Shown here: positions 1,232-33,520 of the stretch, piece by piece
How positions within the stretch are numbered: position 1 is the first letter of the stretch
Layout of the letters: every line of letters starts with the position of its first letter
NCBI GenBank assembly: GCA_018303405.1
Contig: JAGVYD010000012.1
Coordinates: 1-64,000 of the forward strand
Origin: Candidatus Woesearchaeota archaeon
GTDB taxonomy: Archaea > Nanobdellota > Nanobdellia > Woesearchaeales > JABMPP01
Direction of reading: 5' to 3'
Length of the DNA: 64,000 bases
Notes under the pieces: generated by a model
What the model was told of the DNA's origin: nothing
The model's input: the letters and a program-made list of their open reading frames with translations, nothing else
The model's database searches: none
Translations under genes and position numbers: made by a program

Positions 1232-1394
1232 GGCTTAGTAGAAAAGTTTACGTTTTGCCATCAATTCTGCGAGCACCTGGAAATAAGCAGACAGCAGTTT
1301 TCGAAGTTCCAGGGAGAAAACTGCCCTCATGAATAAGTATCTCATGCGAGCCGATGGCAAAACCTGAGCCTTCAGGCGAAGTTTTCTGCTAAGC
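1232..1394 (-). repeat. Inverted-repeat element, copy R1 (diverged)
   Basis: This is a diverged copy of the 160-165 bp element seen best at 8604-8767, in the opposite orientation. The ends pair as GGCTTAGTAGAAAA with TTTTCTGCTAAGC. Inside, TTTTGCCATC pairs with GATGGCAAAA, and the centre CAGTTTTC pairs with GAAAACTG around the loop GAAGTTCCAGGGA. Flanks are TATATTGC on the left and TATATTTGC on the right, an imperfect target-site duplication. No gene lies between 1179 and 1506 apart from this element. Confidence 0.75.
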
Positions 1395-1506
1395 TTATAT
1401 TTGCATAGGATACCGGGATTGTGATGGGGTATTGGGATTATGGTGGCGCCAGGCATGCACAAAAACCGACAAGCATAAATATACCTTATGACACTGAATT
1501 TTTACC

Positions 1507-2118
1507 ATGGGCATGCAAGAAGAACTCCATTACATTGAGCAGGAAGTCAAGCAATTGCGAGAAAGCCGCAAGTCCATGGAGGCTGAAGGCAGCACAGAGC
1601 AAAAGTCATTCCTTTACAAGAAAATCCTCCAATATGTTGACGGCTATATCTGGCGAATGAAAATAAGGATGTTCTGGATTGGCTTTTTCAACAAGGAGCT
1701 CAAGAGAAAGCTATACGTTGTGTCCGATTTCATTCTCAAGGCGCATGAATTTTTAATAGAGGAGTACAATGCCATTGCACAGCAGGCCGGCAAGGGAGAG
1801 GATGAAAACATCCTGGAATATCACATTGCCACGCAGCAGCTGGAGCACAAAATAAGGCAGCTGGACAAGGAAATCGAGGACAAGGCAAGGATTCTCGAGG
1901 AGACCAGGCAGAAGCCATTGTACAGGGAATTAGGTGCTATGCTGACACTTCGCCTTGTCGCGGCCATCTTTGTCAACCTGGAAAGGGACACCGTGCACAC
2001 AAGCAAATTTGCAGAAGAGCTTGGCAAAAAATTCCTCCAGCTCAGGCCAGGCAGCAAGGATTCCCCCCTGAGCGGCAACAGTTGCCATCGCCCTACAAAT
2101 AAGTGGTTCCCGTTGTAA
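1507..2118 (+). CDS. Hypothetical helical (coiled-coil) protein
   Basis: I do not recognise this 203-residue protein. It is rich in charged helices (residues 5-30 and about 100-135, with Lys, Glu and Gln heptads) and has no signal peptide or clear membrane span. The last 25 residues are Pro/Ser-rich and probably disordered. A TATA-like ATAAATATAC lies about 27 bases upstream of the ATG, which suggests a leaderless transcript. A second ATG two codons in is an alternative start. It is a stand-alone gene and no function is proposed. Confidence 0.65.
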   Translation: MGMQEELHYIEQEVKQLRESRKSMEAEGSTEQKSFLYKKILQYVDGYIWRMKIRMFWIGFFNKELKRKLYVVSDFILKAHEFLIEEYNAIAQQAGKGEDENILEYHIATQQLEHKIRQLDKEIEDKARILEETRQKPLYRELGAMLTLRLVAAIFVNLERDTVHTSKFAEELGKKFLQLRPGSKDSPLSGNSCHRPTNKWFPL

Positions 2119-2190
2119 ACTGGACTTTCTAACTCTTATTGCAATTTAATCAATAATGTCCGGATAGAATCCTCTGTCTTTTCGCGCCAT

Positions 2191-2209
2191 AATTTGACCG
2201 AGTCAAATT
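2191..2209. promoter_or_regulatory. Perfect 8-bp-arm palindrome, operator-like
   Basis: AATTTGAC-CGA-GTCAAATT is a perfect inverted repeat with a three-base centre in the spacer between the coiled-coil gene and the HTH regulator gene. It could be a protein-binding site; no regulator can be assigned. Confidence 0.4.
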
Positions 2210-2213
2210 AGGG

Positions 2214-2256
2214 TTTATTTTTTTCCCCCTCGGCCAGAGCAGGGGAGAAAAATAAA
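2214..2256 (+). terminator. Long A/T-G/C hairpin, possible terminator or RNA structure
   Basis: A T-rich arm ending in CCCC and a later arm GGGGAGAAAAATAAA are complementary over about 14 bases around a loop of about 14 bases. Read on the minus strand it ends in a T-rich arm. It may end transcription of the gene stopping at 2118, but archaeal terminators usually need only a T-run, so the role is uncertain. Confidence 0.35.
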
Positions 2257-2348
2257 GTCGTTGGAACAATGACCGCGAATGCCTATAGAACAATCAGTAT
2301 ACTGCAATTTATTCGCAAATTTAACCGATATCTTTATAAATTAACTAT

Positions 2349-2362
2349 CATTAACATTGTTA
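2349..2362. promoter_or_regulatory. Palindrome TTAACATTGTTAA at the regulator's start
   Basis: A 13-base near-perfect palindrome lies just before the ATG at 2365, and the TATA-like CTTTATAAAT is at about 2331-2340. Its place at the expected transcription start would let a dimeric HTH protein block transcription, so autoregulation by the downstream gene is a reasonable inference. Confidence 0.4.
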
Positions 2363-2364
2363 AC

Positions 2365-2742
2365 ATGAAACTTCTAACTCCTCAGGAAATCGAGGTTTGG
2401 TACATCCTGCCGGCAGTCCGCCGGGAACTGGCCAAAATCATGATCAGCACAAAGGGCATGTCGCAAAAGCAGGCGGCAAAAGTCCTCTATTTGACCGAGC
2501 CGGCCATTTCCCAATACCTCAAGGAAAAGCGCGGCAAGGATGTCAAGTTCAATAATGCGGTCCAGCAGGAAATGAAAAAATCAGTGGACACAATCCTTGC
2601 CAACCCATCTCCATCATCCCTTATCTCTGAATTGCAGCGCATCCTAAAGGTCACCAAGCAGAACATGATTCTCTGCAGCGTGCATAAGAAAATTGACTCC
2701 AGCATCCCGCATGACTGCAATCAGTGCGTGAAATGGTGGTAG
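2365..2742 (+). CDS. HTH transcriptional regulator, COG2522-like (XRE-type)
   Basis: A 125-residue protein whose N-terminal half has a helix-turn-helix, including GMSQKQAAKVLYLTEPAISQYL, preceded by an EIEVWYILPAVRREL segment typical of the archaeal COG2522 regulators. The C-terminus carries Cys/His pairs (CSVH and CNQC), possibly a small metal site, as in that family. An ATG at 2269 would add 32 residues, but the TATA box at about 2331-2340 is 25-30 bases upstream of 2365, so I take the internal ATG and a leaderless transcript. Target genes are not evident; a palindrome overlapping its own promoter suggests autoregulation. Confidence 0.75.
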   Translation: MKLLTPQEIEVWYILPAVRRELAKIMISTKGMSQKQAAKVLYLTEPAISQYLKEKRGKDVKFNNAVQQEMKKSVDTILANPSPSSLISELQRILKVTKQNMILCSVHKKIDSSIPHDCNQCVKWW

Positions 2743-2824
2743 GGCTTTCTCTTCAAATTGTTTTACAATTGTTATTACTCTAGCATAGTATTCTTTTCCA
2801 AAGGTTTTTATACTACAGTTAATT

Positions 2825-3442
2825 ATGAAGCTTTTCAGGGTGATATCAGTGTTTGAAAATACAGAAACTCCTGCTACAATGAAGCCCCTTGAAGCAATTC
2901 TCGCACCTGAGTATGAAAATGTCTTGGCTCCAGTCATCAGGCATGACAAAAAAGAAATGAGACGGAACCGGGACAGGATAGCCGAAGTGGCCGGGCACTA
3001 CATGATGGCTGCCAAGCAATTCCATCCTGTGTACAAGGAAATTATTGGCGACTATGACTCACTGGGCTCAGACATCACAGAAGCCTTTATCCCTGATTCC
3101 AGTCCAACGGATTCAACCATCTCTTCCCTCAGGGAAAAGCTGGAAGGGCAAAAAACCATGCTTGCTGCGTCCCAGGTCGAATTGCTAATGACACTTGTCG
3201 ACCGGAATCTGCCGATTGAAGAACAGGCAAAGCGATATCTTCTGAACATTCACGATTTAAATCAGAGGCTCGATAACATCGGCACTATCCTTGGCGAGGC
3301 AGCGGAATGGACATCCAATCCTGAAAAGGCAGCCAAATTTCAGGCCTTAGCTGCAAAAGTCCGAAATGTCTATGACAGGTTGCAGCATGCAGCTATTGAC
3401 AAAATGCCCGGGATATATATCTCTCGGGCCGAAACACACTGA
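2825..3442 (+). CDS. Hypothetical helical protein
   Basis: I do not recognise this 205-residue, mostly helical, cytoplasmic-looking protein. The ATG at 2825 is about 15-20 bases from TTTTTATACT. A GTG at 2849, eight codons in, is preceded by GGTGAT at good Shine-Dalgarno distance and may be the true start; from there the protein would begin MFENTETPAT. The helices near residues 95-125 and 145-175 have heptad-like spacing. No catalytic motif or metal site is visible. Confidence 0.6.
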   Translation: MKLFRVISVFENTETPATMKPLEAILAPEYENVLAPVIRHDKKEMRRNRDRIAEVAGHYMMAAKQFHPVYKEIIGDYDSLGSDITEAFIPDSSPTDSTISSLREKLEGQKTMLAASQVELLMTLVDRNLPIEEQAKRYLLNIHDLNQRLDNIGTILGEAAEWTSNPEKAAKFQALAAKVRNVYDRLQHAAIDKMPGIYISRAETH

Positions 3443-3576
3443 TTTTTCTCTTAAATCTCATTTTTTTATCCAAAAAATAACAATTTATCCATATTTCTAT
3501 AGTTTTCGGATGGAAATATTTATATATTAGTTGTGTCATAGATAGACAACTATACGATTGTGTATACTGACAATGT

Positions 3577-3822
3577 ATGTTGATGTCAATGGCAAAGAAA
3601 AAAACCATCCCGGAAAACGTACCTGTCCCTGACAACTGTGAACGAGTCTTTGTGACCTTCACCGACGACGTGACTGTTTCTGATGGAGAAAAGGAGCTTG
3701 TTGTGGCAATAAACATTGAATTTGCCTTTGATGTGCCGCTGGACAACACTTATGCGGATGTGCCAGTATTGCTGAACAACAGCGCTGCGGCAGGCAGGCT
3801 GCCTGGCAGTGACTTGGCTTAG
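3577..3822 (+). CDS. Small hypothetical protein
   Basis: An 81-residue acidic protein with no recognised family. ATGs at 3577, 3583 and 3589 are all possible starts. A strong TATA-like ATTTATATATT lies about 50 bases upstream. The predicted chain alternates short hydrophobic stretches and turns (a beta-rich pattern) and has no transmembrane segment. It converges with the minus-strand DUF1385 gene 17 bases downstream. Confidence 0.45.
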   Translation: MLMSMAKKKTIPENVPVPDNCERVFVTFTDDVTVSDGEKELVVAINIEFAFDVPLDNTYADVPVLLNNSAAAGRLPGSDLA

Positions 3823-3839
3823 AAATTCTCCGGTTTGTT

Positions 3840-4745
3840 CTAGCTATTTGCCTTCCTGGCCTTGCCCGGGCTCTTTTCCATGGAAATAACTGCTTTCATG
3901 GAGGCAATGGCCACTTCAATCTGCTTGTTGTCCGGCACAGCTGTTGTCATCTTCTGTATCCAAAGGCCCGGCTGAACCATAATATTAATCAGCCAATTAT
4001 CCTCAAATTTTGCGCCCAATTTCAGAATCTCATAAGCTATCCCTGCAATAACAGGAAGCAGGAGGATTCTCCACAAAAATTTCTCCCAAAAGCCAAAATA
4101 AGCCGGCACAAAAGAATAGACAAGGATGCTAAGGAAAATCACGATAAACAGGAATGTTGTTCCGCATCTCCTGTGGATTGGCGAATATTTCCTGACATTC
4201 TTGGGGGCAAGGGCTTTGCCCTGCTCATGGCAGGCAATGGACATATGCTCAGCACCGTGGTACATGAAAAGCCTTTTCACATCCTTCATCTGCGAAATCA
4301 GCCAAATGTACAGCACGAAAACCCCGAGCTTGAGCAAGCCTTCAATCAGGTTGAATAAAAAGCCTTGGCCAATCCCCGTAAGCCATTTGCTTATCTGTTG
4401 CGTGGCAAAAAGCGGTATGAGCTTGAAAATCAGCAGGGCCATCACAATTGAGATCAGCACTGTGAAGAATATCTCAGTGTTCGATGCCTTGTCCTCTTCG
4501 CCTGATGCCTGGCTCGCCGAAAAATTCAATGCTTTCATTCCCAAAAAAAGTATCTCAAAAAGCATGGCCATGCCGCGGAAAAAGGGCAGGCTGAACAGGT
4601 AGACCCTTTCAGAAATCGGGTTGAGCTTTTCTTTCCTTATGGCAATCTTGCCGTTCGGCTTCCTGACAGCAACTGCCATGTTCTTCTTGCTCTTAACCAT
4701 GACGCCTTCAATCACTGCCTGCCCGCCGTAGGTTTGTTCTGCCAT
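3840..4745 (-). CDS. DUF1385 (YqhQ-like) multispanning membrane protein
   Basis: The N-terminus TYGGQAVIEGVMVKSKKNMAVAVR and the central motifs HGAEHMSIACHE and SPIHRRCGTTFLF are the hallmarks of the DUF1385/YqhQ family, which is common in Firmicutes and sporadic elsewhere. At least four hydrophobic segments lie at roughly residues 50-75, 95-125, 130-155 and 195-245. Biochemical function is unknown; the conserved His and Cys could bind metal. A TTG at 4769 is an alternative start, but the ATG at 4745 begins at the conserved N-terminus. The next gene upstream on the same strand is dCMP deaminase. Confidence 0.82.
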   Translation of the reverse strand: MAEQTYGGQAVIEGVMVKSKKNMAVAVRKPNGKIAIRKEKLNPISERVYLFSLPFFRGMAMLFEILFLGMKALNFSASQASGEEDKASNTEIFFTVLISIVMALLIFKLIPLFATQQISKWLTGIGQGFLFNLIEGLLKLGVFVLYIWLISQMKDVKRLFMYHGAEHMSIACHEQGKALAPKNVRKYSPIHRRCGTTFLFIVIFLSILVYSFVPAYFGFWEKFLWRILLLPVIAGIAYEILKLGAKFEDNWLINIMVQPGLWIQKMTTAVPDNKQIEVAIASMKAVISMEKSPGKARKANS

Positions 4746-4796
4746 GTTGATAATAACCTGTCGCTTCAAAAATTGTAAAACATACTCATTATCCTA

Positions 4797-5270
4797 TCAT
4801 TTCCTGGCCCTGCCGCCCATGTAATCCAGTCGTATTCCTGCCTGGTTGGCATAAACCGTTATCCTCTCATCCCTGTAAAATTCCATGTAATGCACTGCCC
4901 TTATCCCTGAATTTGCGGCGAGCTTAAAGCATGTCAGGCAGGGCGAGGCTGTTATGAATATCTCCGAGTTGTCGATGTTCACCCCGTTTCGTGCAGCCTG
5001 GGCAATCGCATTCGCCTCTGCATGCACTGTCCTGACGCAATGGTCATGCTCCATGTCATGACCCACATCATCGCAATGCGGCGCGCCCCTCACGCTCCCG
5101 TTGTAGCCTGTTGACAAGATTGTCCTGTTCCTGACAATTACAGCCCCGACATGCTTCCTGTCGCATGTGCTTCTCGTTGCGACCTGGTCCGCAATGTTCA
5201 TGAAGTAATTGTCCCAGTCAACCCTTTTGACATCCCTTTGCATTTTCTCCTGTGGTTTTTCTGCTGCCAT
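4797..5270 (-). CDS. dCMP deaminase (deoxycytidylate deaminase family)
   Basis: Zinc enzyme converting dCMP to dUMP, the feeder for dTMP synthesis. The zinc signature is complete: HAEANAIAQAA carries the His ligand and catalytic Glu, and PCLTC carries the two Cys ligands. The N-terminal WDNYFMNIADQVATRSTCDRK segment and the GYNGSVRGAPHC segment are typical of the ComEB/dCMP deaminase branch rather than of free cytidine deaminases. The 157-residue length is normal. A GGGGGAG Shine-Dalgarno lies a few bases before the ATG. A nearby nucleotide-binding protein and NrdR make this a deoxynucleotide-flavoured neighbourhood. Confidence 0.9.
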   Translation of the reverse strand: MAAEKPQEKMQRDVKRVDWDNYFMNIADQVATRSTCDRKHVGAVIVRNRTILSTGYNGSVRGAPHCDDVGHDMEHDHCVRTVHAEANAIAQAARNGVNIDNSEIFITASPCLTCFKLAANSGIRAVHYMEFYRDERITVYANQAGIRLDYMGGRARK

Positions 5271-5312
5271 CTTGCTCCCCCTTCCAGCTTCTCCCAGCTT
5301 TTTCTATTGAAA

Positions 5313-5867
5313 TTATGTTTGTCCGGATATTTTTTTCCAGAATGCATTTGTATTTTTTTGCAATTCTGCAAGGCTGCCTTCATTGATTATTGTGAAATCC
5401 GCCATTGCAATTGGCCCTGCCTTGTGGCTGTTCTCAATCTCGGCCTTGTCGCGCGAGGCCGCTTCCTCATGTGCCAATGGCCTGATTTTCCTTTCTGCAA
5501 GGCGCTGGTACCTTGTCGCCGGTGACGAGGCAATTGCGAGCACAATCATCTTTTCCCCGAATTTTTCCCTGAGGAAAAGCCATTCCTCCCAGCTGTAAAG
5601 CCCGTCCGCAATTACGCTTCCTTTTTCCAGTGCCTTCTCAAGCTTTCCGGCATTCAGCCTGGCAAAGGCGTCCATTCCATGCTCTTTCCTCAATCCTTCG
5701 CGGACCATTCTTTCATTCTTCTCATTGACATCAAGCCAGCGTCTTTTCAGCTCCTCCATTGTCACGTCGCCAAACCTGACATAGGCAAGGCCATGCTTTT
5801 TCAGAAATTCAGAAACCTCGGTTTTTCCAGAGCCGGTCATGCCCACAATTGAAATGATTTTGTTCAT
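5313..5867 (-). CDS. UPF0200-like P-loop protein (dephospho-CoA kinase-like fold)
   Basis: A 184-residue P-loop NTPase with Walker A GMTGSGKT near the N-terminus, followed by an RFGDVTMEEL segment, a VIADGLYSWEEW segment and ADFTIINEGS near the C-terminus. This motif order matches the archaeal UPF0200 family, which is distantly related to dephospho-CoA and nucleotide kinases; substrate is unknown. The open frame extends to 6023, but the ATG at 5867 starts directly at the P-loop strand (MNKIISIVG), and the added segment would overlap the divergent gene's promoter, so I use 5867. Confidence 0.75.
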   Translation of the reverse strand: MNKIISIVGMTGSGKTEVSEFLKKHGLAYVRFGDVTMEELKRRWLDVNEKNERMVREGLRKEHGMDAFARLNAGKLEKALEKGSVIADGLYSWEEWLFLREKFGEKMIVLAIASSPATRYQRLAERKIRPLAHEEAASRDKAEIENSHKAGPIAMADFTIINEGSLAELQKNTNAFWKKISGQT

Positions 5868-5964
5868 ATCCCAAAAGATAAATGACGGATATAAAAAGAT
5901 TGACATAATTTTGGGCATAGTAAGTGTAGAAAAACATATAAACTTGAATGGTCTAAGATTGAGA

Positions 5965-7302: not shown

Positions 7303-7338
7303 CATAAAATAGACCGAATTCATTGTGGACCGAAAGAT

Positions 7339-7953: not shown

Positions 7954-8001
7954 CCCATTACCTCTCCTTTCTGTTCCCCGAAATCCAAGTCTCATCAGCC
8001 C

Positions 8002-8451: not shown

Positions 8452-8484
8452 GTCATTAACCCTCTTTATGATTTTGGGAACCAT

Positions 8485-8556: not shown

Positions 8557-8603
8557 TATTTGTATACTTGAAAACAAGGTTTATGCTGATTCGGGCCCAC
8601 TCT

Positions 8604-8767
8604 GGCCTTGTCCGAAAACTCGCCTTCCGGCTCGGTTTGGGCATCCGCTCAGCATTGCGGCTTCCCGCGAATTGCATTTTTCTCCTCTGCAACCCCGAAA
8701 AATGCATAATCCCTCCGGGAATGGGCTACGCAAAATTGATGCCCAAACTCACTTTTCGGACAAGGCC
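8604..8767 (+). repeat. Inverted-repeat element, copy R2 (164 bp, type copy)
   Basis: Outer arms GGCCTTGTCCGAAAA (8604-8618) and its complement (8753-8767) enclose a middle stem TTTGGGCATC/GATGCCCAAA (8636-8645 with 8738-8747) and a central stem TGCATTTTT/AAAAATGCA (8673-8681 with 8698-8706). The direct repeat GCCCACTC flanks it on both sides (with one extra T at the left), a target-site duplication. It has no coding capacity of its own. It fills the spacer between the nrdR promoter and the PiT gene's end. Confidence 0.88.
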
Positions 8768-8780
8768 GCCCACTCCAGTA

Positions 8781-9782
8781 TTATATAAAAAGGGAAATAA
8801 CCAGGTAGGATAAAGCTGCAACAGCAGCAGATACCGGAATTGTCAGGATCCAGCTCCATAAAATCTTATTGGCAACTCCCCATCGCACTGCAGAAACCCT
8901 TTTTGCAGCCCCCACTCCCATAATGGAGCCGGCAATTACATGAGTTGTGCTGACAGGTATGCCAAACTGGGTTGCGCCAATAATCACGCTGGCACCGGCT
9001 GTTTCCGCGCAAAAGCCGTTGACAGGCCGAAGCTTGGTAATCTTATGCCCCATTGTATGGATGACCTTCCTGCCGCCAATCAGTGTGCCAAGGGCAATGG
9101 TTCCATGCGACAAAAGCACAATCCAAAAGGGCACGTAGAACTCTCCACTGAGGTAGCCGGCGCTAAAAAGCAGGATAGCAATAATCCCCATGGTTTTCTG
9201 TGCATCATTTGTGCCGTGGCCTAAGCTATAGACGGAAGCAGAAATCAATTGAAGCCACCTGAAGTGCTTGTTCACTTTCCGTGGGTCGCTGTTCCGGCTG
9301 AAATGGAAAACTATTGCTGAAAATAGCATGGCGCCAACCAGGCCAAGCAAGGGTGCCACAAAAATGAAAATAACAACTTTGGTGACACCTGAATAAATTA
9401 TGGATTTGAGGCCAGCCTTGGCAAGGCCTACTCCCACCAATCCGCCTATAAGGCTGTGGCTTACTGAAATCGGGAAGCCCTTCCTGGTCATCAAATACAC
9501 CCAAAAAATTGCGCCACACAAAGAAGCAAGGACTACATAGGGAGTTACAAGATTCGAGTCGATAATCCCCTTGCCAATAGTTTTTGCGACCGCAACGCCA
9601 AATACAAAAGCCCCCGCAAAATTGAAAAAAGCCGACATGAGTACCGCTGCCCTAAGTGATAGGACACCAGTCGCAACAACTGTGGAAACTGCGTTCGCAG
9701 CATCGTTGACTCCATTTCCAAAGTCAAATATGAGTGCAACAAGAATAATGATTATGACCAAAATAAGGCCGCCATCAAGCAT
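8781..9782 (-). CDS. PiT-family inorganic phosphate transporter
   Basis: Low-affinity phosphate:cation symporter of the inner membrane. Both PiT signatures are seen: FDFGNGVNDAANAVSTVVATG near residue 20 and SLGHGTNDAQKTMGIIA in the second half, with about ten hydrophobic spans over 333 residues. It overlaps the upstream DUF47 gene by eight bases, so the two are translationally coupled; DUF47 proteins are standard PiT partners. A GGTGA ribosome site lies just before the ATG, within the upstream gene. The gene ends only 13 bases from repeat element R2. Confidence 0.93.
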   Translation of the reverse strand: MLDGGLILVIIIILVALIFDFGNGVNDAANAVSTVVATGVLSLRAAVLMSAFFNFAGAFVFGVAVAKTIGKGIIDSNLVTPYVVLASLCGAIFWVYLMTRKGFPISVSHSLIGGLVGVGLAKAGLKSIIYSGVTKVVIFIFVAPLLGLVGAMLFSAIVFHFSRNSDPRKVNKHFRWLQLISASVYSLGHGTNDAQKTMGIIAILLFSAGYLSGEFYVPFWIVLLSHGTIALGTLIGGRKVIHTMGHKITKLRPVNGFCAETAGASVIIGATQFGIPVSTTHVIAGSIMGVGAAKRVSAVRWGVANKILWSWILTIPVSAAVAALSYLVISLFI

Positions 9783-13107: not shown

Positions 13108-13154
13108 GCTTATTCAGTAGTTTTTAAAGTTTCCCAGTTGGGGCATGAAAAGAA

Positions 13155-13315
13155 GGCTCTGTCCAGAGACTTGGTTTTGGCATCAATTTTGTGAGACTTA
13201 TCAATCCTCACATAAAGCATTTTTCGGAGTTCCAGAGAGAAAAATGCAATTTTTCCCGGAGTTGAAGGCGAACAGATGCCAAAACTCGAGCCGAAGGCGA
13301 GATTCTGGACAGAGC
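13155..13315 (-). repeat. Inverted-repeat element, copy R3
   Basis: A copy in the opposite orientation to R2, with ends GGCTCTGTCCAGA and TCTGGACAGAGC, middle stem TTTTGGCATC/GATGCCAAAA and central stem GCATTTTTC/GAAAAATGC around the loop GGAGTTCCAGAGA. It is flanked by a perfect 10-bp direct repeat, ATGAAAAGAA (13145-13154 and 13316-13325). It sits just upstream of the DRG gene's TATA box. Confidence 0.88.
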
Positions 13316-13360
13316 ATGAAAAGAATTAACTTTAATATAACCCCCTGCCATCCTATAACC

Positions 13361-14458
13361 ATGGTTGACTATCTGGAACAGATTAAGCAGTTCGAAGATG
13401 AAATCAGGAAGACCCAGTACAACAAGGCTACCCAGCACCACATTGGCCTTGTCAAGGCAAAAATTGCAAAACTGAGGGAAGCCCATGAAAAAAGGCAGGC
13501 CTCAAAGGGGGGCGGCCAGGGTTATGCAGTCAGGAAAAGCGGGGATGCAACTGTTGTCCTTCTTGGCTACCCTTCAGTTGGAAAAAGCACACTCCTGAAC
13601 AAGCTGACAGATGCAAACTCGCCTGTGGGCGCCTATGCCTTTACGACCTTGACAGTCATACCGGGTTTGCTGGAGCACAAGCACGCCAAAATTCAGATAC
13701 TGGACGTGCCAGGCATTGTAATGGGCGCAGCATCGGGCAAGGGAAGAGGGAAGGAAGTTCTTGCAATAATCCGCTCAGCCGACCTTATCATCATATTGAT
13801 CGATGTCAATGCGCCCGAGCATTATCGCATCATCCGCAAGGAAGTTTATGATTCCCATGTCAGGGTCAACCAGAGCAAGCCTGATGTCAAAATAAAAAAG
13901 GTGGCCCGCGGGGGAATAAAGCTTGGCACAACTGTCAAGCTGACAAAAATTGACCCGGCGACAATCAAAAGCGTAATGCAGGAATTCAAGCTCAACAACG
14001 CAGATGTCCTGATAAGGGAAGATGTCTCAGTTGACCGCTTTATAGACTCCATTGAGGCGAACAAGCATTACATCCCTGCAATAACCGTTGTCAACAAAAT
14101 TGACATGGCAACGAATGACCAGATAAAAAAAGTAAGGGAAAAAATCAAGCCTGATATAATGATATCAGCCGAGCAGTCATTCCACATCAATGAGCTGAAG
14201 GAGCTCATCTACAAGAGGCTGCAATTCATGAACATTTACCTGAAAGAGCCCGGCAAGGAAGCTGACATGAAAATCCCACTGGTCATGAAAAAGGCAAGCA
14301 CAATCAGGGATGTCTGCGAAAAGCTTCACAGGGATTTTGTGCAGAAATTCAAGTTTTCCAGGATATGGGGCAAGAGCGTGAAATTCAGCGGCCAGAAAAT
14401 CATCAAGCTCGACCATAAATTAATGGACAATGACATTCTTGAACTGCATTTGAGATAA
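13361..14458 (+). CDS. DRG-family GTP-binding protein (Obg/DRG superfamily)
   Basis: A 365-residue GTPase of the developmentally-regulated GTP-binding group, conserved in archaea and eukaryotes and tied to translation. A basic N-terminal helix (IKQFEDEIRKTQYNK...) precedes the G domain: G1 GYPSVGKST, G3 DVPGIVMGAASGKGRGKE and G4 NKID. The C-terminal TGS domain ends ...HKLMDNDILELHLR. The frame is open upstream through repeat R3, but TTTAATATAA is about 25 bases before the ATG at 13361 and all homology starts there. Confidence 0.93.
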   Translation: MVDYLEQIKQFEDEIRKTQYNKATQHHIGLVKAKIAKLREAHEKRQASKGGGQGYAVRKSGDATVVLLGYPSVGKSTLLNKLTDANSPVGAYAFTTLTVIPGLLEHKHAKIQILDVPGIVMGAASGKGRGKEVLAIIRSADLIIILIDVNAPEHYRIIRKEVYDSHVRVNQSKPDVKIKKVARGGIKLGTTVKLTKIDPATIKSVMQEFKLNNADVLIREDVSVDRFIDSIEANKHYIPAITVVNKIDMATNDQIKKVREKIKPDIMISAEQSFHINELKELIYKRLQFMNIYLKEPGKEADMKIPLVMKKASTIRDVCEKLHRDFVQKFKFSRIWGKSVKFSGQKIIKLDHKLMDNDILELHLR

Positions 14459-14531: not shown

Positions 14532-15149
14532 TCACCCCATCCCATCATGAATTAAGGCATGGCTCAATAATTTTATCTCGCTGACTTTGTACTCATCTGC
14601 CTGGTTCATAATTTTGTAGAGCCTGTGCGGATAATCATATTTTCGCAAGGTAGGGATACGTATTTTATCCCCTACCAAAGCCTTTTCCAATATTCGGAGG
14701 GGGTCATTTGACAATTCATCTGCCATCGGACCTGAATAATCCTTGGAGCGTGGTTCGATACCGATAAAAATGTGATAATCACTTCCCTCTTCAACAGTGC
14801 TATCAACCAAATCAGGGCTTATTTGGATATACACTCCGGTATTGGGGATTTCCGGATTCTCGGCTTGCAAAGGAGACGGAACTTCTGATACGTGCGCAAA
14901 TTTTACCGATTTAATCGTCCCGGTCAGATAACTTTTCGCCACTGCATCTGGATCAGGAGATACCAAATTATAGTGGTGTGGATATTTTCGAGATTTTTCT
15001 ATTTTGCCCGGAACCAGTGCGCCGTTTGGCAGGGTTTGTGTGTCCCATAAGGGTCTTCTCTCGCTTTGCTGGATGCATGCTTCCAATCCTCCAACAGCCG
15101 CGACACCCGATCCCAATGCAAACGATTTCAAAAAAGTTCTTCTGTCCAT
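14532..15149 (-). CDS. Tat-exported lipoprotein-like protein, unknown
   Basis: The N-terminus has a twin-arginine signal (RRTFLK, then a hydrophobic ALGSGVAAVGGLEAC segment), with Cys placed like a lipobox, so the protein is probably exported folded and perhaps lipid-anchored. The mature part (about 180 residues) has no family I recognise; it is rich in beta-type segments such as KSYLTGTIKSVKFAHV and VYIQISPDLVDS. It stands alone between the DRG gene and repeat R4. Tat cargo usually implies bound cofactors or fast folding, but no metal motif is clear. Confidence 0.65.
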   Translation of the reverse strand: MDRRTFLKSFALGSGVAAVGGLEACIQQSERRPLWDTQTLPNGALVPGKIEKSRKYPHHYNLVSPDPDAVAKSYLTGTIKSVKFAHVSEVPSPLQAENPEIPNTGVYIQISPDLVDSTVEEGSDYHIFIGIEPRSKDYSGPMADELSNDPLRILEKALVGDKIRIPTLRKYDYPHRLYKIMNQADEYKVSEIKLLSHALIHDGMG

Positions 15150-15184: not shown

Positions 15185-15243
15185 CTAATATTTACCTCTC
15201 TATTATAGTAAAAACTCTTTCTTTAAAAGTCTTTGCAGGGCAG

Positions 15244-15407
15244 GGCCTTGTCCGAAAACTCGCCTTCCGGCTCGGTTTGGACATCCGCTCAGCATTGCAG
15301 CTTCTCATGCATTGCATTTTTCTCCTCCGCAACTCCGAAAAATGCCTAACCCATCCTGGAATGGGCTTCGCAAAATTGATGCCCAAACTAACTTTTCGGA
15401 CAAGGCC
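15244..15407 (+). repeat. Inverted-repeat element, copy R4
   Basis: A 164-bp copy very close to R2 (same GGCCTTGTCCGAAAA arms, middle stem TTTGG-CATC/GATGCC-AAA and central TGCATTTTT hairpin). The flanks GCAGGGCA and GCATGGCA match at seven of eight positions, a slightly decayed target-site duplication. The rest of the 15150-15477 spacer holds the 20-bp direct repeat and promoter sequence. Confidence 0.85.
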
Positions 15408-15445
15408 GCATGGCAGTGCATCATATGGTGAAAAATATCACAAGA

Positions 15446-27767: not shown

Positions 27768-28406
27768 ATGGCGCATGCTATCTACATAAGGGGAAGAAGG
27801 ACAGATATAATACACCTGGGGCCAATAACAACTTCCGCAACGGAGATAGGCCAGCTTTTCAAGGCCTGGCTGGCCATAAGCCTGGCATTTGCAATTGTCC
27901 TCGGCGGTTTCTCATTGACTACGAAATTCTTGCAGGTGATGGTAATAGCTGCCTTTACTGTCGGCATTGGATTTCTGCTGCATGAGCTTGCCCACAAGCT
28001 TGTGGCGCAGGCCTATGGTGCATGGGCAGAGTTCAGGTCTTTTGACCAGATGCTGCTGTTGGCCATTATAATGAGCTTTTTTGGCTTTGTCTTTGCAGCG
28101 CCTGGCGCAGTTTTCATTCACGGCCATATTGACATGAGAAAAAATGGGATTATTTCAGCGGCAGGCCCATGGACAAATATCGGCATTGCCATCCTTTTTG
28201 CGATTTCGGGTTTGATTTTTTCCTTGCCTGCAATTTTCATTGCCTATGGCTTTATGATCAATGCATGGCTGGCTGCATTCAACATGATCCCCTTTGGCAA
28301 TTTCGACGGCCGGAAAGTCTGGGCATGGAGCAAGCTCGCCTATATCATCACTTTGCTGATCAGCATTTTCCTGGTCATGGCATCCCAGATGTTTACTTTA
28401 TTGTAA
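27768..28406 (+). CDS. Site-2 protease family (M50) intramembrane metalloprotease
   Basis: A 212-residue membrane protein with the zinc motif HELAHK in a hydrophobic helix (about residue 70) and the second motif NMIPFGNFDGRKVW near residue 175, whose Asp completes the metal site. About six hydrophobic spans. It belongs to the short archaeal S2P group without PDZ or CBS domains. It would cut membrane-embedded substrates, but no partner anti-sigma-like gene is adjacent. The ATG at 27768 lies about 28 bases after a TATA box; an upstream TTG at 27756 is less likely. Confidence 0.85.
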   Translation: MAHAIYIRGRRTDIIHLGPITTSATEIGQLFKAWLAISLAFAIVLGGFSLTTKFLQVMVIAAFTVGIGFLLHELAHKLVAQAYGAWAEFRSFDQMLLLAIIMSFFGFVFAAPGAVFIHGHIDMRKNGIISAAGPWTNIGIAILFAISGLIFSLPAIFIAYGFMINAWLAAFNMIPFGNFDGRKVWAWSKLAYIITLLISIFLVMASQMFTLL

Positions 28407-28480
28407 GATGAATATTGTAAGATGAATAATATTGCTGATAGGCCGTTGATGGATGTGGCAATATTTCCAACTGAGATGTT

Positions 28481-28509
28481 GTCCAAACTCACTTTTTGGG
28501 CAAAGCTTG
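28481..28509 (+). repeat. Fragment of the inverted-repeat element (right end only)
   Basis: TGTCCAAACTCACTTTTTGGGCAAAGC-like sequence matches the right end of R2 (GCCCAAACTCACTTTTCGGACAAGGC) over about 27 bases with a few changes. No left arm is found. It lies just upstream of the map TATA box (about 28521-28532). Confidence 0.55.
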
Positions 28510-28552
28510 CCAATGGGTAAACTTTATATTCTGCAGGGGATTGTTCTGGCTA

Positions 28553-29443
28553 ATGCAAATCGAAGACCTTGGGAAATGGAGAAAAGCCGGCAGGCTGACA
28601 GCAGAAGTAAGGGAATTCTCGCGCACAGTTGTCAGGCCAGGAACAAGAATCCTTGATGCAGTTGAAATCATTGAAAAGAAAATCTATGAGCTCGGCGGAG
28701 AGCCTGCATTTCCTGTCAATATCTCGCTGAACGATTGCGCTGCGCATTACACTCCTGTCCCCAACGATGAAACAATATTTTCTGACCAATTGGTTAAAGT
28801 GGACTGCGGCGTTCATGTCGACGGCTGTATTGGCGACACAGCAGTGACCATTGACCTTTCAGGCAAATACGCAGACCTTGTCAATGCTGCAAAGGAAGCT
28901 CTTGAAGCGGCAATCGCGACTTTGAAGGATGGAGGGTCGCTTGGCGAAATCGGCGCAACTGTGCATTCCAAAATAACTTCAAAAGGCTTCTCGCCTGTAA
29001 TCAATCTTTCCGGGCACGGTTTGAACAAGTTTGTCGTGCATGACTCCCCTAATGTGCCAAACTATGACACAGGAGATGCAAGGAAGGTTGCGGCAGGTTC
29101 GATTATTGCCATTGAGCCTTTTGCCTCGCTTGGCAAAGGTGAAATCTATGAGTCTGGCAATGCCATGATTTTTTCTGTCTCCCGAAAGGCAGGAATCCGG
29201 AATATCATCACCAAGAAGGTTTTCCAGGAAATAGAAAAGTACAGGGGGCTGCCTTTCTGCACCAGGTGGCTTGCAAAAAAATTCCCCGAAGCCCAGGTGA
29301 ATTATGCCATGCGAGACTTGAAGCAGTTGGGCGTCTTGCATGATTATCCCCCATTGGTTGATGTCAGGCACGGCATGGTCAGCCAGGCCGAGCACACCAT
29401 TTTTGTTGGCGAAGATGGCATTGAAGTCTTGACAAAGGTGTGA
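28553..29443 (+). CDS. map: Methionine aminopeptidase, type II
   Basis: Removes N-terminal Met from nascent proteins. The five metal ligands of the pita-bread fold are in place: the two Asp in KVDCGVHVDGCIGDTAVT, His in LSGHGLNKF, Glu in IIAIEPFA and Glu in SQAEHTIFV. The helical insert between His and the last Glu (QEIEKYRGLPFCTRWLAKKFPE...) marks it as archaeal/eukaryotic type II. The 296-residue length is normal. ACTTTATATTC lies about 27 bases before the ATG at 28553, supporting that start over the longer frame, which runs into a repeat fragment. Confidence 0.95.
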   Translation: MQIEDLGKWRKAGRLTAEVREFSRTVVRPGTRILDAVEIIEKKIYELGGEPAFPVNISLNDCAAHYTPVPNDETIFSDQLVKVDCGVHVDGCIGDTAVTIDLSGKYADLVNAAKEALEAAIATLKDGGSLGEIGATVHSKITSKGFSPVINLSGHGLNKFVVHDSPNVPNYDTGDARKVAAGSIIAIEPFASLGKGEIYESGNAMIFSVSRKAGIRNIITKKVFQEIEKYRGLPFCTRWLAKKFPEAQVNYAMRDLKQLGVLHDYPPLVDVRHGMVSQAEHTIFVGEDGIEVLTKV

Positions 29444-29501
29444 TTTCTTAAGAGTGGCAACTATAGCCAAGCTTTAAAAATAAGCTTCTCAACGCATATG
29501 C

Positions 29502-30170
29502 ATGAAACCGCATCGAATGCATTATAAAGGGGGAGGCTCCCAAAAAAAGCAGCGATTTGAGGCAGCGCGCCGCAAATTGGACATTTTGGTTTCTGAAAAT
29601 TATGCACATTACAATCCGAAAAAGCATGGCAATTATGGGGATTTTGCGCGCATGATAGGCGATAACCATGGTGCTTTTGTGTCAGGAGTTTTGAAATTAT
29701 ACCGTTCCGGGAATTACATTGAAGAAACCAAAAGGATGATGGATGACGAACTGGATTTTCTTGGATTGAGAGAGCAGGTTTTGCTTGCCCAACAAATGGA
29801 TGGGCAGCTTTCGCTTGAGCGCATATTGCCCGGCGGCTACAGGCGCATAAAAGAATCTGACAATCCCTGGGTGTCCGGCATTACGGCAATTAGGAATTAC
29901 CTCACCCGGACCACTCCCAAAGATGCCACCCTGCTAGTGGCAGTTTATGAGCCATATGGCCTAGTTGACCACCACCATCTGAAGAACCCGCTTGTGCTTG
30001 GCGAGTCATCCATGCCAAAAAGTCCTGATGGCAGGCTTGTTGTCACGGCAAATTATGATGGCGGAACCTATAGGGTGGATTTTACCCTTGCCAAAGAACC
30101 AGATGGAAAGTCGCATGCTGTTATGTTCAAACCTTATGTTCCCCCTATTCCCCGACAACCTTCACAATGA
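29502..30170 (+). CDS. Hypothetical protein
   Basis: A 222-residue protein not recognised. It opens with a basic [24 protein letters not shown] stretch that could bind nucleic acid, followed by a helical region to about residue 125 and a beta-rich C-terminal half containing [32 protein letters not shown]-like CTTTAAAAATAAG lies about 28 bases upstream. Its 3' end overlaps the convergent YjbQ gene by 26 bases. Confidence 0.6.
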
Positions 30171-30567
30171 CCCTTTTCCTTCTTTGCCCGTCGAATTCCG
30201 CATAATAGATTTGCTCCCACGGCCCGAGGTCCAGTTTTCCGTCAGTAACTGGCATCACAACCTGGTGTCCCATCAGGGTCCTTTTCAAATGCGCATCAGC
30301 ATTGTCTTCGCCAGTCTGGTGATGCCTGTATGGCAGGCCATATGGCGCAAGCTTTTCAAGCCATGCCTGGAAATCCTCTATCAGCCCAGATTCTGCGTCG
30401 TTCACATATACGGCTGCAGTGATGTGCATTGGATTTATCAGGGCAAGGCCATCTTTGATGCCGGATTTCCTGACCGCATTTTCGACCTGGCCGGTAATGT
30501 TGAGAAATTCCTGTTTCTTCTTGGTGTTGAACCAGAGATATTCTGTGTAAGGCTTCATATTTTTCAT
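30145..30567 (-). CDS. YjbQ/UPF0047 family protein
   Basis: A 140-residue protein of the widespread YjbQ (UPF0047) family, whose E. coli member has weak thiamine-phosphate-synthase-like activity. The family signature is clear: [14 protein letters not shown]-type segment, then [54 protein letters not shown]. The His/Asp/Glu cluster probably binds metal. Physiological substrate unknown. ATGs at 30567 and 30558 are both possible. Confidence 0.92.
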
Positions 30568-30627
30568 GGATATGTTTCATGTTTTTAAATCTATATCAGA
30601 AAAAATTTATTGGAAATAAAAATGCCG

Positions 30628-31635
30628 CTACGCTGCCACCAGCACTCTTTCTTTTTCCCTCTTGGGCATTGGCTCCCGTTCTGGCGGCTTTTGCCGTGAA
30701 TAATGGTTCCTGAGCGGGCCTAACAGTTCAGCCGGCTGCGGTATTCTGTAGTCACTAACTTTGGGAATAATATGGTAGTGCACCCTGTTCAAATGCTCCT
30801 TCCCTTTTCTCGCTTCGTGTACGACAATCGCAATTTCCTGTACTGCCGGGTCCCGCAAAAGCACTTCCACGGCCCCTCGCATATTTTCACCCACATATTT
30901 TCTTTCTTCCGGGTTCATGTATTCCAACCGTGCAATCCTTGTGTCAGCATCTATCCTTCGGGGATTAAGAACATCATATGGCACTGACAATTGGCTGAAT
31001 TCATCCCAGTGAAAGGTAAGCTCCTTTTTTTCACTCTTCTGCTTGAATGCTTCCAGGGGGGTTTCCACTCCATATCCAGGTTTCATAAGCATTTCAACCC
31101 ACCTGGACTCGTCATCAGCAACGGCTCTCGTGTCGCTTGTCGCCGGCAATGTATACCCTCTGATCATGAGCGATTTGCTCTCAGGCCTCTTTGTTATTTT
31201 ATACACCTGAACCAGGCCCTCGAGACTTTCATCCTGAGAAAACAATCGGGCCAATTCACTTCCGCTTGCGGTAATGGCGCGCATATCCTGGTAGGTTATA
31301 TCATCAAGTGAATGCCTGTTTGGGAATACAGTCACAATGACTGCCTGCCCATCTCCGAATTCCGACACAAAGGAATAATGTTTTTCCCTGTCCTCCTCGG
31401 AAGAATAAGACCCGCTGTGGTAAAACTTTCTGCCCAGCCTTGCCTCTTTTGTATCCATTGAGTAATTTGGTCCCTGGCCATTTCCCATATTGATAATTTT
31501 TTGCATCAGGCCAGGCGGAAGCTGTCCATTGCTGGGTAATTTCAACTGCGACCTGAGGTTCGGTTTTCCGGCATTAGAAATAGTATTGTTTACCAGTTCG
31601 TATCTGTCATCCAGTGTAGTCCCTTCATATGCCAT
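30628..31635 (-). CDS. Hypothetical protein with a HIT-like HYHIIP motif
   Basis: A 335-residue soluble protein. Near the C-terminus, RVHYHIIPKVSDYRIPQP recalls the histidine triad (HxHxxP) of HIT hydrolases, and GQAVIVTVFPNRHSLDDITYQDMRAI earlier could be the partner half of a HIT/GalT-like fold, but the match is partial, so the assignment is tentative. A GTG at 31656 adds seven residues; I use the ATG at 31635. A minus-strand TATA-like TTTTTATAAT lies at about 31694-31704. Confidence 0.6.
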   Translation of the reverse strand: MAYEGTTLDDRYELVNNTISNAGKPNLRSQLKLPSNGQLPPGLMQKIINMGNGQGPNYSMDTKEARLGRKFYHSGSYSSEEDREKHYSFVSEFGDGQAVIVTVFPNRHSLDDITYQDMRAITASGSELARLFSQDESLEGLVQVYKITKRPESKSLMIRGYTLPATSDTRAVADDESRWVEMLMKPGYGVETPLEAFKQKSEKKELTFHWDEFSQLSVPYDVLNPRRIDADTRIARLEYMNPEERKYVGENMRGAVEVLLRDPAVQEIAIVVHEARKGKEHLNRVHYHIIPKVSDYRIPQPAELLGPLRNHYSRQKPPEREPMPKREKERVLVAA

Positions 31636-31808
31636 TTCTAGCCACTCTGTACACACTGTAATGTCTTCAACCTGCAGGGGGGCATAGAATTACAATTATA
31701 AAAACTTTTCTATTTATCATACTTTATATGATAACTCAATTAGGCCTCTTATAACTCTCATAATTTAGCCATGGCCTTATAACTATGGTCCAATAATCCA
31801 GCTAAGAA

Positions 31809-32924
31809 TCAGCCCTTCTCGCAAATTATTGCCTCATCCTCACCCAGAAAAACATGCAGGGTCTTTTCCCCGGCCAGCCCTGCCTGGATTGCGTTTTTCT
31901 CCTCCCAATACCTGTCAGGCGCAATGTTGCCATGCAAGACAGCCTTCCTGGCATTGAAGCCTGCTAGGCTATGCCTTATGGCATCCTTGCCATTTGATTC
32001 AATAGCCAAAACCTTGTAGCTTGCCTTGAAGAAATCCCCTTTAACCAGCTTCTCAGAAGTCAGGTATTTTTCATACATAAACAAGCCTTGCCCGGGGATT
32101 CTCTGCACCAGCCCAGCGCGCTCTGCAGCAGGGTCAACCTCATATATATAATCCAGCGGGGAGGCATAAGCAAAAATGTTTTCCTCATCCTTGTCTGTGA
32201 GCCGTGCTTCCTGCGGAAGGCAAACAGCTGAGATATTTGACAGCCTGGCCTTGCCGAGGTAAATGTTAAGCCGGTTCAACTGCCCATTGAGGCTTATATA
32301 TTCCCTTTCAGAATCCTGGGCAACCCACCTGATCTGCGGAGGCAGCTCTATGCAAAGGGATTCAGAGATTTTTCCATAATACCCAATCAAATCCTGGATT
32401 GCAGGTTGAAGCGAGCCAAGAGACCTCGATGCTTCCGTGGCAGGCCTTTCCGGGTCGCAGAAAATCACATCTGCTTTTTTTATGGTTTTAAGCAAAGCCA
32501 TTCCATCGCCGGAGTGAAATTCAATATTGCCAACTCCTTCTTTTTCAGCATTGAATTTTGCATAGCCCACTTTTCTGGGGTCAATGTCGACGGCAATTAC
32601 CCTTTTGCATGTTTTCGCAAATGCAATGGCCTGCATGCCAATGCCGCATCCAACATCCACAATTTCGTCGCAGGCAAGCCTCTTTGCGCGATATGCCGCA
32701 ATAACCTGGTTTGTTGCAAATCTTAAGTCAGATTCATTAAAGGCAAAAGAATCCGGCAATTTCCCAGTCCTGGAGTTGCTTATAAGCGCCCTGGCAATGG
32801 AGAATGCTTCTTCAAAATCCCCTGATCGGACTCTTGATTTTATCCTGTCTTTGTATATGCCCTGCCTGATCAATTTTTCAATTTTGTTTGCAGATTCCTT
32901 CAAAGAAGCTGGTTCTGATGCCAT
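31809..32924 (-). CDS. Class I SAM methyltransferase with THUMP-like C-terminal domain
   Basis: A 371-residue protein. The Rossmann methyltransferase core starts at about residue 90 (EIVDVGCGIGMQAIAFAKTCKRVIAVDIDPRKV, then VIFCDPERPATEASRS). The C-terminal 90 residues (GQGLFMYEKYLTSEKLVKGDFFKASYKV... to HVFLGEDEAIICEKG) match the THUMP-like domain seen in bacterial PG_1098-type methyltransferases, which suggests an RNA substrate. The helical N-terminus also fits. It is a single-gene unit; the precise target is unknown. Confidence 0.8.
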   Translation of the reverse strand: MASEPASLKESANKIEKLIRQGIYKDRIKSRVRSGDFEEAFSIARALISNSRTGKLPDSFAFNESDLRFATNQVIAAYRAKRLACDEIVDVGCGIGMQAIAFAKTCKRVIAVDIDPRKVGYAKFNAEKEGVGNIEFHSGDGMALLKTIKKADVIFCDPERPATEASRSLGSLQPAIQDLIGYYGKISESLCIELPPQIRWVAQDSEREYISLNGQLNRLNIYLGKARLSNISAVCLPQEARLTDKDEENIFAYASPLDYIYEVDPAAERAGLVQRIPGQGLFMYEKYLTSEKLVKGDFFKASYKVLAIESNGKDAIRHSLAGFNARKAVLHGNIAPDRYWEEKNAIQAGLAGEKTLHVFLGEDEAIICEKG

Positions 32925-32989
32925 GCAGGCAAATTAATTGGCCGCATTAATAATATTTGCTATAAATCACAACTGTATTAGGACACTAG

Positions 32990-33211
32990 TCAGGGAGCAC
33001 CCGGATTAGTCAGGTCTTTTTCAACAAGCTTGCACGGCATGCACCTGCCTGTCCCAAGGACATAGCCTATGACCTCCTCTGGAATTGGCTCCATCAACCA
33101 ATTATCCTCGATAAGGCGGCCAGCTATGGTATTATCCTGTCTTCTTAGGTAATTGCCCTGCACCTTATAGCCCGGCTGTTCAATCAGGTAGTCAATGAAT
33201 TTTTCACGCAT
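32990..33211 (-). CDS. Small hypothetical protein with a CxxC motif
   Basis: A 73-residue protein not recognised, with TGRCMPCKLVEKD near the C-terminus; the C-x2-C with a preceding Arg is thioredoxin-like in appearance only. It begins at an ATG and has no paired promoter that I can point to. Possibly a small redox or metal protein; function unknown. Confidence 0.45.
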   Translation of the reverse strand: MREKFIDYLIEQPGYKVQGNYLRRQDNTIAGRLIEDNWLMEPIPEEVIGYVLGTGRCMPCKLVEKDLTNPGAP

Positions 33212-33282
33212 GAATGCTGGATTTTGCAGGTGTTTAAGAATTTAATTGTCTATTGTCAAGAACTGCCTTTTGCCATAAACGG

Positions 33283-33346
33283 CTTTGCCCGAAAAGCCCC
33301 TTTTCTGTCCAAATAGTCGGACTTTTATGGAGTTATTGGGCAAATC
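33283..33346. repeat. Short inverted-repeat element next to R5
   Basis: GGCTTTGCCC at the left and GGGCAAATCC at the right are complementary with one mismatch and bound 64 bp of otherwise unexplained sequence. It resembles a shorter relative of the R-family element, or a remnant interrupted by R5 ten bases downstream. Confidence 0.4.
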
Positions 33347-33356
33347 CATTCTAAGT

Positions 33357-33520
33357 GGCCTTATCCGAAAACTCGCCTTCCGGCTCGGTTTGGGCATCCG
33401 CTCAGCATTGCGGCTTCCTGCGAATTGCATTTTTCTCCTCTACAACCCCGAAAAATGCATAATCCCTCCGGGAATGGGCTTCGCAAAATTGATGCCCAAA
33501 CTCACTTTTCGGACAAGGCC
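33357..33520 (+). repeat. Inverted-repeat element, copy R5
   Basis: A 164-bp copy nearly identical to R2 (one change in the left arm: TTATCC for TTGTCC). Flanks are a perfect 8-bp direct repeat, ATTCTAAG, with one extra T at the left as in R2. It ends just before the TATA box (about 33532-33544) of the zinc-ribbon-LemA-TPM operon. Confidence 0.9.

Follow-up and report, generated by a model that had tools for sequence, protein, structure and literature searches.

The 64,000-nucleotide stretch of archaeal DNA analysed here (contig JAGVYD010000012.1, hereafter the window) carries five full copies of an inverted-repeat element of about 163 bp whose two arms change together from copy to copy. This raises the question of whether the element is maintained as an RNA, as a folded DNA or simply as a mobile sequence, and of what determines where its copies come to rest. 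Our preferred answer, to which we assign a probability of roughly 0.7, is that the element is a non-autonomous transposon resembling miniature inverted-repeat transposable elements (MITEs), which is moved in trans and inserts upstream of promoters so that one of its ends lies about 15 bp before the TATA box. As a small jumping DNA element, it is widespread within one archaeal order. An earlier note on this DNA had described the copies, their paired arms and signs of mobility, and the strongest feature of the element, its fixed position upstream of TATA boxes, was not noticed there.

The host is a woesearchaeote, a DPANN archaeon, with a genome of 1.6 Mb. For one protein encoded in the window, the best named matches are from Candidatus Woesearchaeota, with identities of 58-61% for the top five. 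A covariance model built from 34 near-full copies from this genome, the five window copies among them (mean column identity of the alignment 83%), yields 62 match rows in the same genome, which by hand count represent 56 distinct places and six opposite-strand duplicates. A search for the pattern of the ends adds three elements of 306, 311 and 162 bp, as sized by end pairing. Similarity searches with one query copy per subfamily return 17, 36 and 41 matches, many of which overlap. In a first survey that considered the best 100 candidates per genome, matches to the covariance model are present in six of 29 genomes, the host included. A second survey of the order, with stricter filters and the best 10 candidates per genome, finds the element in 32 of 287 genomes and 27 of 193 genera, again including the host. 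These latter counts are lower bounds, because the stricter survey missed three genomes (G005, G016 and G024) that were all positive in the first. Another genome, G142, carries about 60 copies (128 end matches, compared with four in the control).

Flanking sequences were evaluated for 53 copies from the host and 113 from relatives. The host set comprises 51 entries, less seven that are shorter than 140 nt or represent the same place reached from another locus, plus nine additions. The relatives' set derives from 114 matches, of which eight were dropped (the partial matches L208:2434, L210:352, L198:1291, L252 and L251:1423, and opposite-strand duplicates of L207, L209 and L212) and to which seven copies from G016 were added, leaving out partial matches and places already used. 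One of two overlapping matches at L259 is probably spurious and is kept among the 113, and the G142 copies at loci L301-L330 are excluded from these flank counts. Mobility, which had been proposed from direct repeats in the window, is borne out on this larger scale both genome-wide and in the relatives. Target duplications pass the score in 29 of the 53 host copies and 60 of the 113 relatives' copies (89 of 166 in total), whereas pairing the flanks of different copies gives averages of only 0.07 and 0.18, respectively, and never more than two. The duplication is 8-10 bp long in 85 of the 89. Most elements are of similar size, with 136 of 166 copies spanning 150-170 bp and 20 of 166 spanning 195-220 bp, although these proportions are biased by the exclusion of host copies below 140 nt and by a search model of 163 positions that favours its own length. 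The longest stop-free frame inside the element has a median of 53 and a maximum of 72 codons across the 166 copies, and thus there is no coding capacity.

Reading outward from one end of the element, the flank presents the target duplication, an A-rich B recognition element (BRE), a TATA box about 16 nt out and, often, a start codon 30-31 nt beyond. At outward offsets 15-19, the sequence TTTAWA is found 36 times among 106 host flanks, where its background is 0.08 per position. The 226 flanks from relatives contain it 66 times at these offsets, with a background of 0.26 per position. An octamer composed entirely of A and T starts at offsets 14-18 on at least one side of 45 of the 53 host copies, compared with a mean of 3.5 (maximum 10) for 55 equal windows located 25-300 nt away (binomial 4e-45). 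For the relatives, the same is true of 87 of the 113 copies, compared with a mean of 8.8 (maximum 18; binomial 8e-73). Such an octamer is present at 76 of the 89 copies with a clear duplication and at 56 of the 77 without one. Among the 47 host copies that were scored, the box starts at offset 15-18 in 42, the offsets being accurate to about 1 nt, as copies begin with either GG or G.

This regular spacing bears on a simple alternative, in which insertion is random and selection purges the copies that damage genes, such that those upstream of promoters survive. A compact genome should make insertions within genes costly, as a general expectation, and this would favour such a process. However, many intergenic distances ought to be tolerable, and yet the box starts occupy the narrow range given above. 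Nor would random insertion be expected to reuse one 9-bp site, as stacked copies do. Stacked pairs, sought in loci already showing several matches, have their members 8-10 bp apart and occur in the relatives at L246, L251, L301, L313 and L322, and in the host at C3:32264/32438. At L246 and L301, the target sequence appears before, between and after the two elements. At L251 and in the host pair it appears before and between them, the second element being cut off or truncated. We therefore regard random insertion followed by selection as very improbable. Two of the stacked loci also reveal a second element family in G142, with ends like GTACGTAATAAG, represented at L313:1335-1490, L301:1339-1491 and L173:620-781. 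At L313 and L301, a gap of 8-10 bp separates its member from a stacked copy of the first family.

The direction of the promoters is equally informative. When flanks are aligned on the box, A appears at positions -5 to -3 and the letters of a start codon at +30 to +33, and neither feature was used in choosing the box. The archaeal BRE occupies the positions just before TATA, which correspond to -5 to -3 here. For copies whose box is confined to one flank, a long open reading frame (ORF) begins 18-60 nt downstream of it in 25 of 42 host cases, versus 11 of 42 at the equivalent distance on the opposite flank; in the relatives, the counts are 54 of 74 versus 18 of 74. The starts peak at +30/+31 from the box. 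Left out of these counts are the boxless copies (7 host, 23 relatives), those that have boxes on each side (3 and 8) and those whose flanks are short (1 and 8). The side on which the BRE lies, together with the ORF starts on the box side, indicates that the element sits upstream of a promoter that points away from it. The opposite arrangement, wherein TATA boxes are directed into the element and the element serves as a 5ˊ leader, was considered and rejected on the basis of the BRE side and the start codons. The element itself is inserted in either orientation at nearly equal frequency (23 left and 18 right in the host, 36 and 42 in the relatives).

Structurally, the outer arms are 13-15 bp long with GG tips in many copies, and the element ends here read GGCTCTGTCCAGAAT / GGCTTTGTAGAAAAT. 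The element has polarity, in that only its left outer arm is accompanied by a short hairpin. Inward from these are a middle stem around GCATC/GATGC, then weaker pairs, and a central stem and loop. Forms of 217 bp carry additional hairpins within the central loop, and other long forms measure 249, 303, 306 and 311 bp. For example, the 303-bp copy of subfamily B at L053:1501-1803 (C9:265219 of the host genome) has well over 100 extra bases in its centre with many inverted repeats. The related 306-311-bp elements at L200 and L201 (C14:112136-112441 and C11:16288-16598 of the host genome; sizes from end pairing) include an extra internal region.

For the 34 host copies, RNAalifold predicts 36 base pairs, 18 of which show a double change that keeps the pair. 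The prediction includes the outer, middle and central stems of the three-stem plan proposed previously, with extra weaker pairs between them. The three sets of arms quoted in support of that plan are correct. Some arms had been compared across strands, because the copies at 8604, 15244 and 33357 are oriented opposite to those at 13155 and 1232. Paired substitution itself extends throughout the genome and into the relatives. Among 114 relatives' copies aligned to the model, every one of the 36 modelled pairs shows double changes, the double-changed cells number 1042 compared with 293 in shuffled data, and 93.7% of cells are paired compared with 63.2% after shuffling and 38-45% when partners are slid. 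Helices 5 and 6 account for three poor pairs among the 36, which are 63-70% paired. This alignment was fitted to the covariance model, and the arm test was repeated in a model-free manner with 32 cluster representatives of 163 copies. The longest complementary run between left and right has a median of 12 for the outer arms, which constitute the terminal inverted repeats, versus 4 with the arms of other clusters. The corresponding values are 10 versus 5 for the middle arms and a weaker 5 versus 4 for the centre.

The type of base pair that is maintained offers a way to distinguish DNA from RNA. In the four strong helix groups, G-U accounts for 35 of 3094 standard pairs, or about 1% (outer 1.7%, middle 0.5%, helices 3-4 0.9% and centre 1.2%). 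The weak group (helices 5-6, three pairs) exhibits 22% G-U and poor pairing. For 19 tRNAs from loci of woesearchaeotes and relatives, 6 of 128 acceptor-stem pairs are G-U (Fisher p 0.005 versus 35/3094), or 6 of 129 (4.7%) with methanogens included, a comparison in which the control is small and the element alignment is fitted to the model.

These values must be weighed against the possibility that the element is a mobile or regulatory structured RNA, whose copies are transcribed and whose fold is selected at the RNA level. Strong covariation over deeply diverged copies is in keeping with such an RNA, and so are the stable folds, which were computed as DNA (z-scores of -7.6 and -4.7 versus shuffles for two copies). 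However, G-U pairs are far rarer than in the tRNA stems, the neighbouring promoters point away from the element, and both insertion orientations are about equally common. Moreover, searches with Rfam return only a tRNA in the window and no family at threshold for the element. Among six loci, there are two Rfam matches far below threshold, one of which lies inside an element copy (sR46, 21 bits versus 50, E 0.4). A structured RNA is thus very unlikely, and the data do not support the earlier suggestion that the fold is selected as RNA. Rather, the near-absence of G-U from the strong helices favours pairing that is kept at the DNA level, as a palindrome. A single-stranded DNA hairpin, recognition of paired ends by a transposase, and copying of arms by template switching are each possible causes of such pairing.

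Template switching in a hairpin, whereby one arm is copied onto the other, would generate matching arms without selection on the folded form. The scarcity of G-U intermediates in the strong helices fits with this process, as do matched ends that vary independently of the interior. Specifically, L306 shares its interior with L301 and L313 and has different matched ends. Also, G142 has several end types, and the 9-nt ends agree exactly in 24 of 30 paired copies, versus a shuffled mean of 6.2 and a maximum of 15, when ends are paired from the 91 zero-mismatch ends among the 128 matches. Unrestricted copying, however, would erase the asymmetric left hairpin and the unequal loops, and these are kept over great divergence. 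We consider it possible, at somewhat less than even odds, that template switching rather than selection on the folded form accounts for the matched arms. It is compatible with a promoter-upstream transposon and may contribute to keeping the arms of the palindrome alike. With its many paired arm changes, the element is a good system in which to examine whether palindrome covariation arises by selection or by template-switch repair.

Target duplications are a feature of prokaryotic MITEs, and the element resembles MITEs in these, in its terminal inverted repeats, in its lack of coding capacity and in being short and multicopy. A review of prokaryotic MITEs, including those of Sulfolobus, likewise portrays them as short, multicopy, gene-free sequences with inverted repeats (PMC10969869). 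The element differs from MITEs in its multi-stem plan, in a nearly constant length across very different sequences and in insertion aimed at promoters. TATA and DPANN do not appear as words in the same review (PMC10969869). No description of BRE/TATA-upstream targeting in archaea, of this element family or of its multi-stem plan was found in searches of open-licence papers, and our best reading is that the family is new and MITE-like in kind, with promoter-targeted insertion.

Short palindromic repeats are also mobile in the case of REPINs, which are moved in trans by RAYT tyrosine transposases. The element is similarly palindromic and, on our reading, moved in trans, whereas REPIN-type elements are not known to generate the 9-bp target duplication seen here. 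Closer parallels for the insertion site come from bacteria. According to PMC3942029, TnGBS and its relatives enter the DNA 15-17 bases before the -35 region of sigma-A promoters, promoters lie to either side of those ISKra4-group members whose inverted repeats are near-perfect, and contact between the transposase and the RNA polymerase initiation complex has been proposed by the TnGBS authors. That paper also draws an analogy to yeast Ty3, whose integration is guided by TFIIIB/TFIIIC, and notes an AT-rich duplicated target for ISH6 (PMC3942029), which we take as the nearest case found to the targeting of archaeal BRE/TATA promoters. TnGBS/ISLre2 (p-MULT 3) and ISKra4 (p-MULT 4) share with our element a fixed upstream spacing, which is about 15 bp to TATA here, and differ in having a sigma-A target and their own transposase, whereas the present elements are mostly 150-220 bp, gene-free and located at BRE/TATA. 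Ty3 is comparable only if a tethering model holds, since it is a retroelement at Pol III genes and has no relation to the element.

Several observations weigh against a promoter-targeted transposon moved in trans. No box is evident in 8 of the 53 host copies and 26 of the 113 relatives' copies, and among the box-bearing copies, 17 of 42 from the host and 20 of 74 from the relatives lack a long ORF start at the expected distance. Two of the stacked loci, L322 and L313, do not show the repeated target clearly on every side. Within the window, the site of copy 8604 does not fit the simple promoter picture, in that no ORF of at least 80 amino acids starts within 160 nt on its box side and the next ORF (8781-9782) runs in the opposite direction. 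At copy 15244, no long ORF starts on the minus strand until 79 nt past the box, at 15149, which makes the promoter assignment uncertain, and neither this copy nor 8604 sits neatly in front of a gene. In addition, a transposase with matching ends, which the earlier note recommended looking for, was not found when families and ends were searched in the host genome and sampled relatives. Transposase_mut (PF00872) has no match in the host genome and one weak, IS6-like match in 29 genomes, with the ISLre2/ISKra4 models not searched genome-wide. At the sensitivity used, DDE_Tnp_1 (IS5-type elements) is lacking in the host and matches in 3 of 12 element-bearing genomes, and DDE_Tnp_IS240 (PF13610) is lacking in both the host and G142 and matches in 8 of 16 genomes. 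No element of insertion-sequence size is present among the ends inspected (the host genome, 18 G016 loci and 91 of the 128 G142 ends). Draft assemblies often lose multi-copy insertion sequences, and for this reason the missing enzyme constitutes weak evidence.

Two known transposase groups were considered as the source of mobility. The first is a p-MULT (Mutator-superfamily) transposase like those of ISLre2 and ISKra4. The TnGBS spacing and the two-sided promoters of ISKra4 members, as cited above (PMC3942029), match the spacing and the freedom of orientation observed here, but the lack of PF00872 in the host, within the limits of the models searched, makes such an enzyme a doubtful candidate. 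The second is an archaeal IS6-type insertion sequence from which the element would derive as an ordinary MITE. Published accounts of this family mention tips with a GG dinucleotide and internal cTGTt and caaa motifs (PMC7986276) and mostly 8-9 bp duplications for the archaeal members (PMC6807381), to which the tips and duplications of the element are loosely similar.

A possible trace of an IS6 origin is found at L260 (G016:C33), where a truncated IS6-like ORF with a zinc ribbon continues into an element half (L260:2031-2143) of 113 bp that is 84% identical to the right part of an element copy. The ORF scores 91 bits with NF033587, which is below the 125-bit cut-off, and 41 bits with PF13610, which is above the cut-off. 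However, its close homologues at L261-L266 show no element-like ends around the ORF, one of the repeat listings covering the longest repeats only; the one element nearby is a separate copy at L263:2200-2354. Of the 19 places encoding an IS240 domain, the 15 inspected (all but L338, L343, L346 and L348) have no element ends, and the inverted repeats at L337, L339, L340, L344 and L345 are unlike those of the element. No autonomous IS6 copy with these ends was found in the inspected places, and neither the host genome nor G142 has the domain. Co-occurrence of IS6-like proteins with the element is weak, with 9 of 57 match genomes falling among the 32 positives when about 6.4 are expected. Taken together, derivation from an IS6-type sequence is unlikely. 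The L260 ORF is not claimed as the mobiliser, given homologues without element ends and the weak co-occurrence.

The IS6-like transposase genes at L261-L267 and L336, which lack element-like terminal repeats, are possibly domesticated. Several have an N-terminal zinc ribbon, and by eye some contain a SWIM-like Cys-His motif. Viral carriage was also examined as a candidate. The one pattern match in a viral contig is a GC-rich stretch within an ORF with no element match, and was taken as a chance occurrence.

How, then, might a promoter-upstream transposon of this kind move? The element, as a set of nested inverted repeats with polarity and a length of about 163 bp (also 195-220 bp, or longer), would be moved in trans by a candidate enzyme acting on its paired ends. 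This enzyme may recognize a folded or paired-end form of the DNA, and would make a staggered cut of about 9 bp in the target directly before the BRE, with proteins on the BRE/TATA determining the position. Insertion could then proceed in either orientation and would leave intact a promoter pointing away from the element. The fixed spacing could result from an integration complex that contacts promoter-bound TATA-binding protein (TBP) and transcription factor B (TFB), or RNA polymerase. The fixed spot just upstream of promoters suggests that the target is probably found via the transcription start machinery, with little damage to the host. The more specific proposal, that integration is steered by a TBP/TFB pre-initiation complex and that a folded DNA hairpin is moved by an enzyme outside the searched families, is tentative and well short of probable; such an element would be an archaeal equivalent of targeting as seen in Ty3 and TnGBS.

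Insertion guided by promoters is documented in bacteria, at sigma-A promoters, and in yeast Ty3 (PMC3942029). The similar spacing of the archaeal and bacterial elements would suggest that tethering to the initiation complex arose convergently. Since each insertion marks a likely promoter, the element could also help to locate promoters and leaderless starts when genomes of uncultured DPANN archaea are annotated.

All five full copies reported previously in the window are present, with covariance-model scores of 136-190 bits that are high by construction because the same copies were used to build the model. Direct repeats flank each of the five by eye, as had been described. The clearest promoter case among them is copy 13155 (13155-13315, minus strand, 161 bp, subfamily B), which has an exact 10-bp duplication, ATGAAAAGAA, at 13145-13154 and 13316-13325. 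A TATA-like box, TTTAATATAA, lies on the plus strand at 13331-13340, starting 16 nt from the end of the copy; 30 nt further on, at 13361, is the ATG of a plus-strand gene (13361-14458) for a Drg-type GTPase with MMR_HSR1, MMR_HSR1_Xtn and TGS domains. A second in-frame ATG for this protein is located inside the target duplication, at 13316. The other clear case is a sixth, truncated copy consisting of a right end of 30 nt (28477-28506, plus strand), which is 83% identical to the end of copy 8604 and scores 10 bits (E 0.5). Its TTTATATT box (28523-28530, plus strand) starts 17 nt beyond the remnant, and a further 30 nt on, at 28553, is an in-frame ATG of a Peptidase_M24 ORF.

Three copies belong to subfamily A, lie on the plus strand and are 164 bp long, each with a duplication that agrees at 8 of 9 positions. 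Copy 8604 (8604-8767) is flanked by GCCCACTCT (8595-8603) and GCCCACTCC (8768-8776), with a plus-strand TATATAAA box at 8782-8789, 15 nt beyond its right end. Copy 15244 (15244-15407) is flanked by GCAGGGCAG (15235-15243) and GCATGGCAG (15408-15416), and its TTTTAAA box is on the minus strand at 15222-15228, 16 nt beyond the left end. Copy 33357 (33357-33520) is flanked by ATTCTAAGT (33348-33356) and ATTCTAAGC (33521-33529), and a plus-strand ATATTTAAATA box at 33533-33543 begins 13 nt beyond its right end. The remaining copy, 1232 (1232-1394, minus strand, 163 bp), represents subfamily C with the outer arm GGCTTAGTAGAAAA. Its imperfect duplication differs by one indel (TTATATTGC at 1223-1231 and TTATATTTGC at 1395-1404), and by eye an A/T box, AAATATATATT, is situated on the minus strand at 1208-1218, 14 nt beyond the left end and on the side of a minus-strand ORF at 123-1178.

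Elsewhere in the window, the regions 36466-46776 and 50347-57116 hold an ORF of 3436 amino acids and further downstream repeats (families D2, D3, D5 and D9). By eye, the DNA of these repeats suggests Asp-rich calcium-binding or FG-GAP-like repeats, and the products of the two regions are probably large surface proteins.

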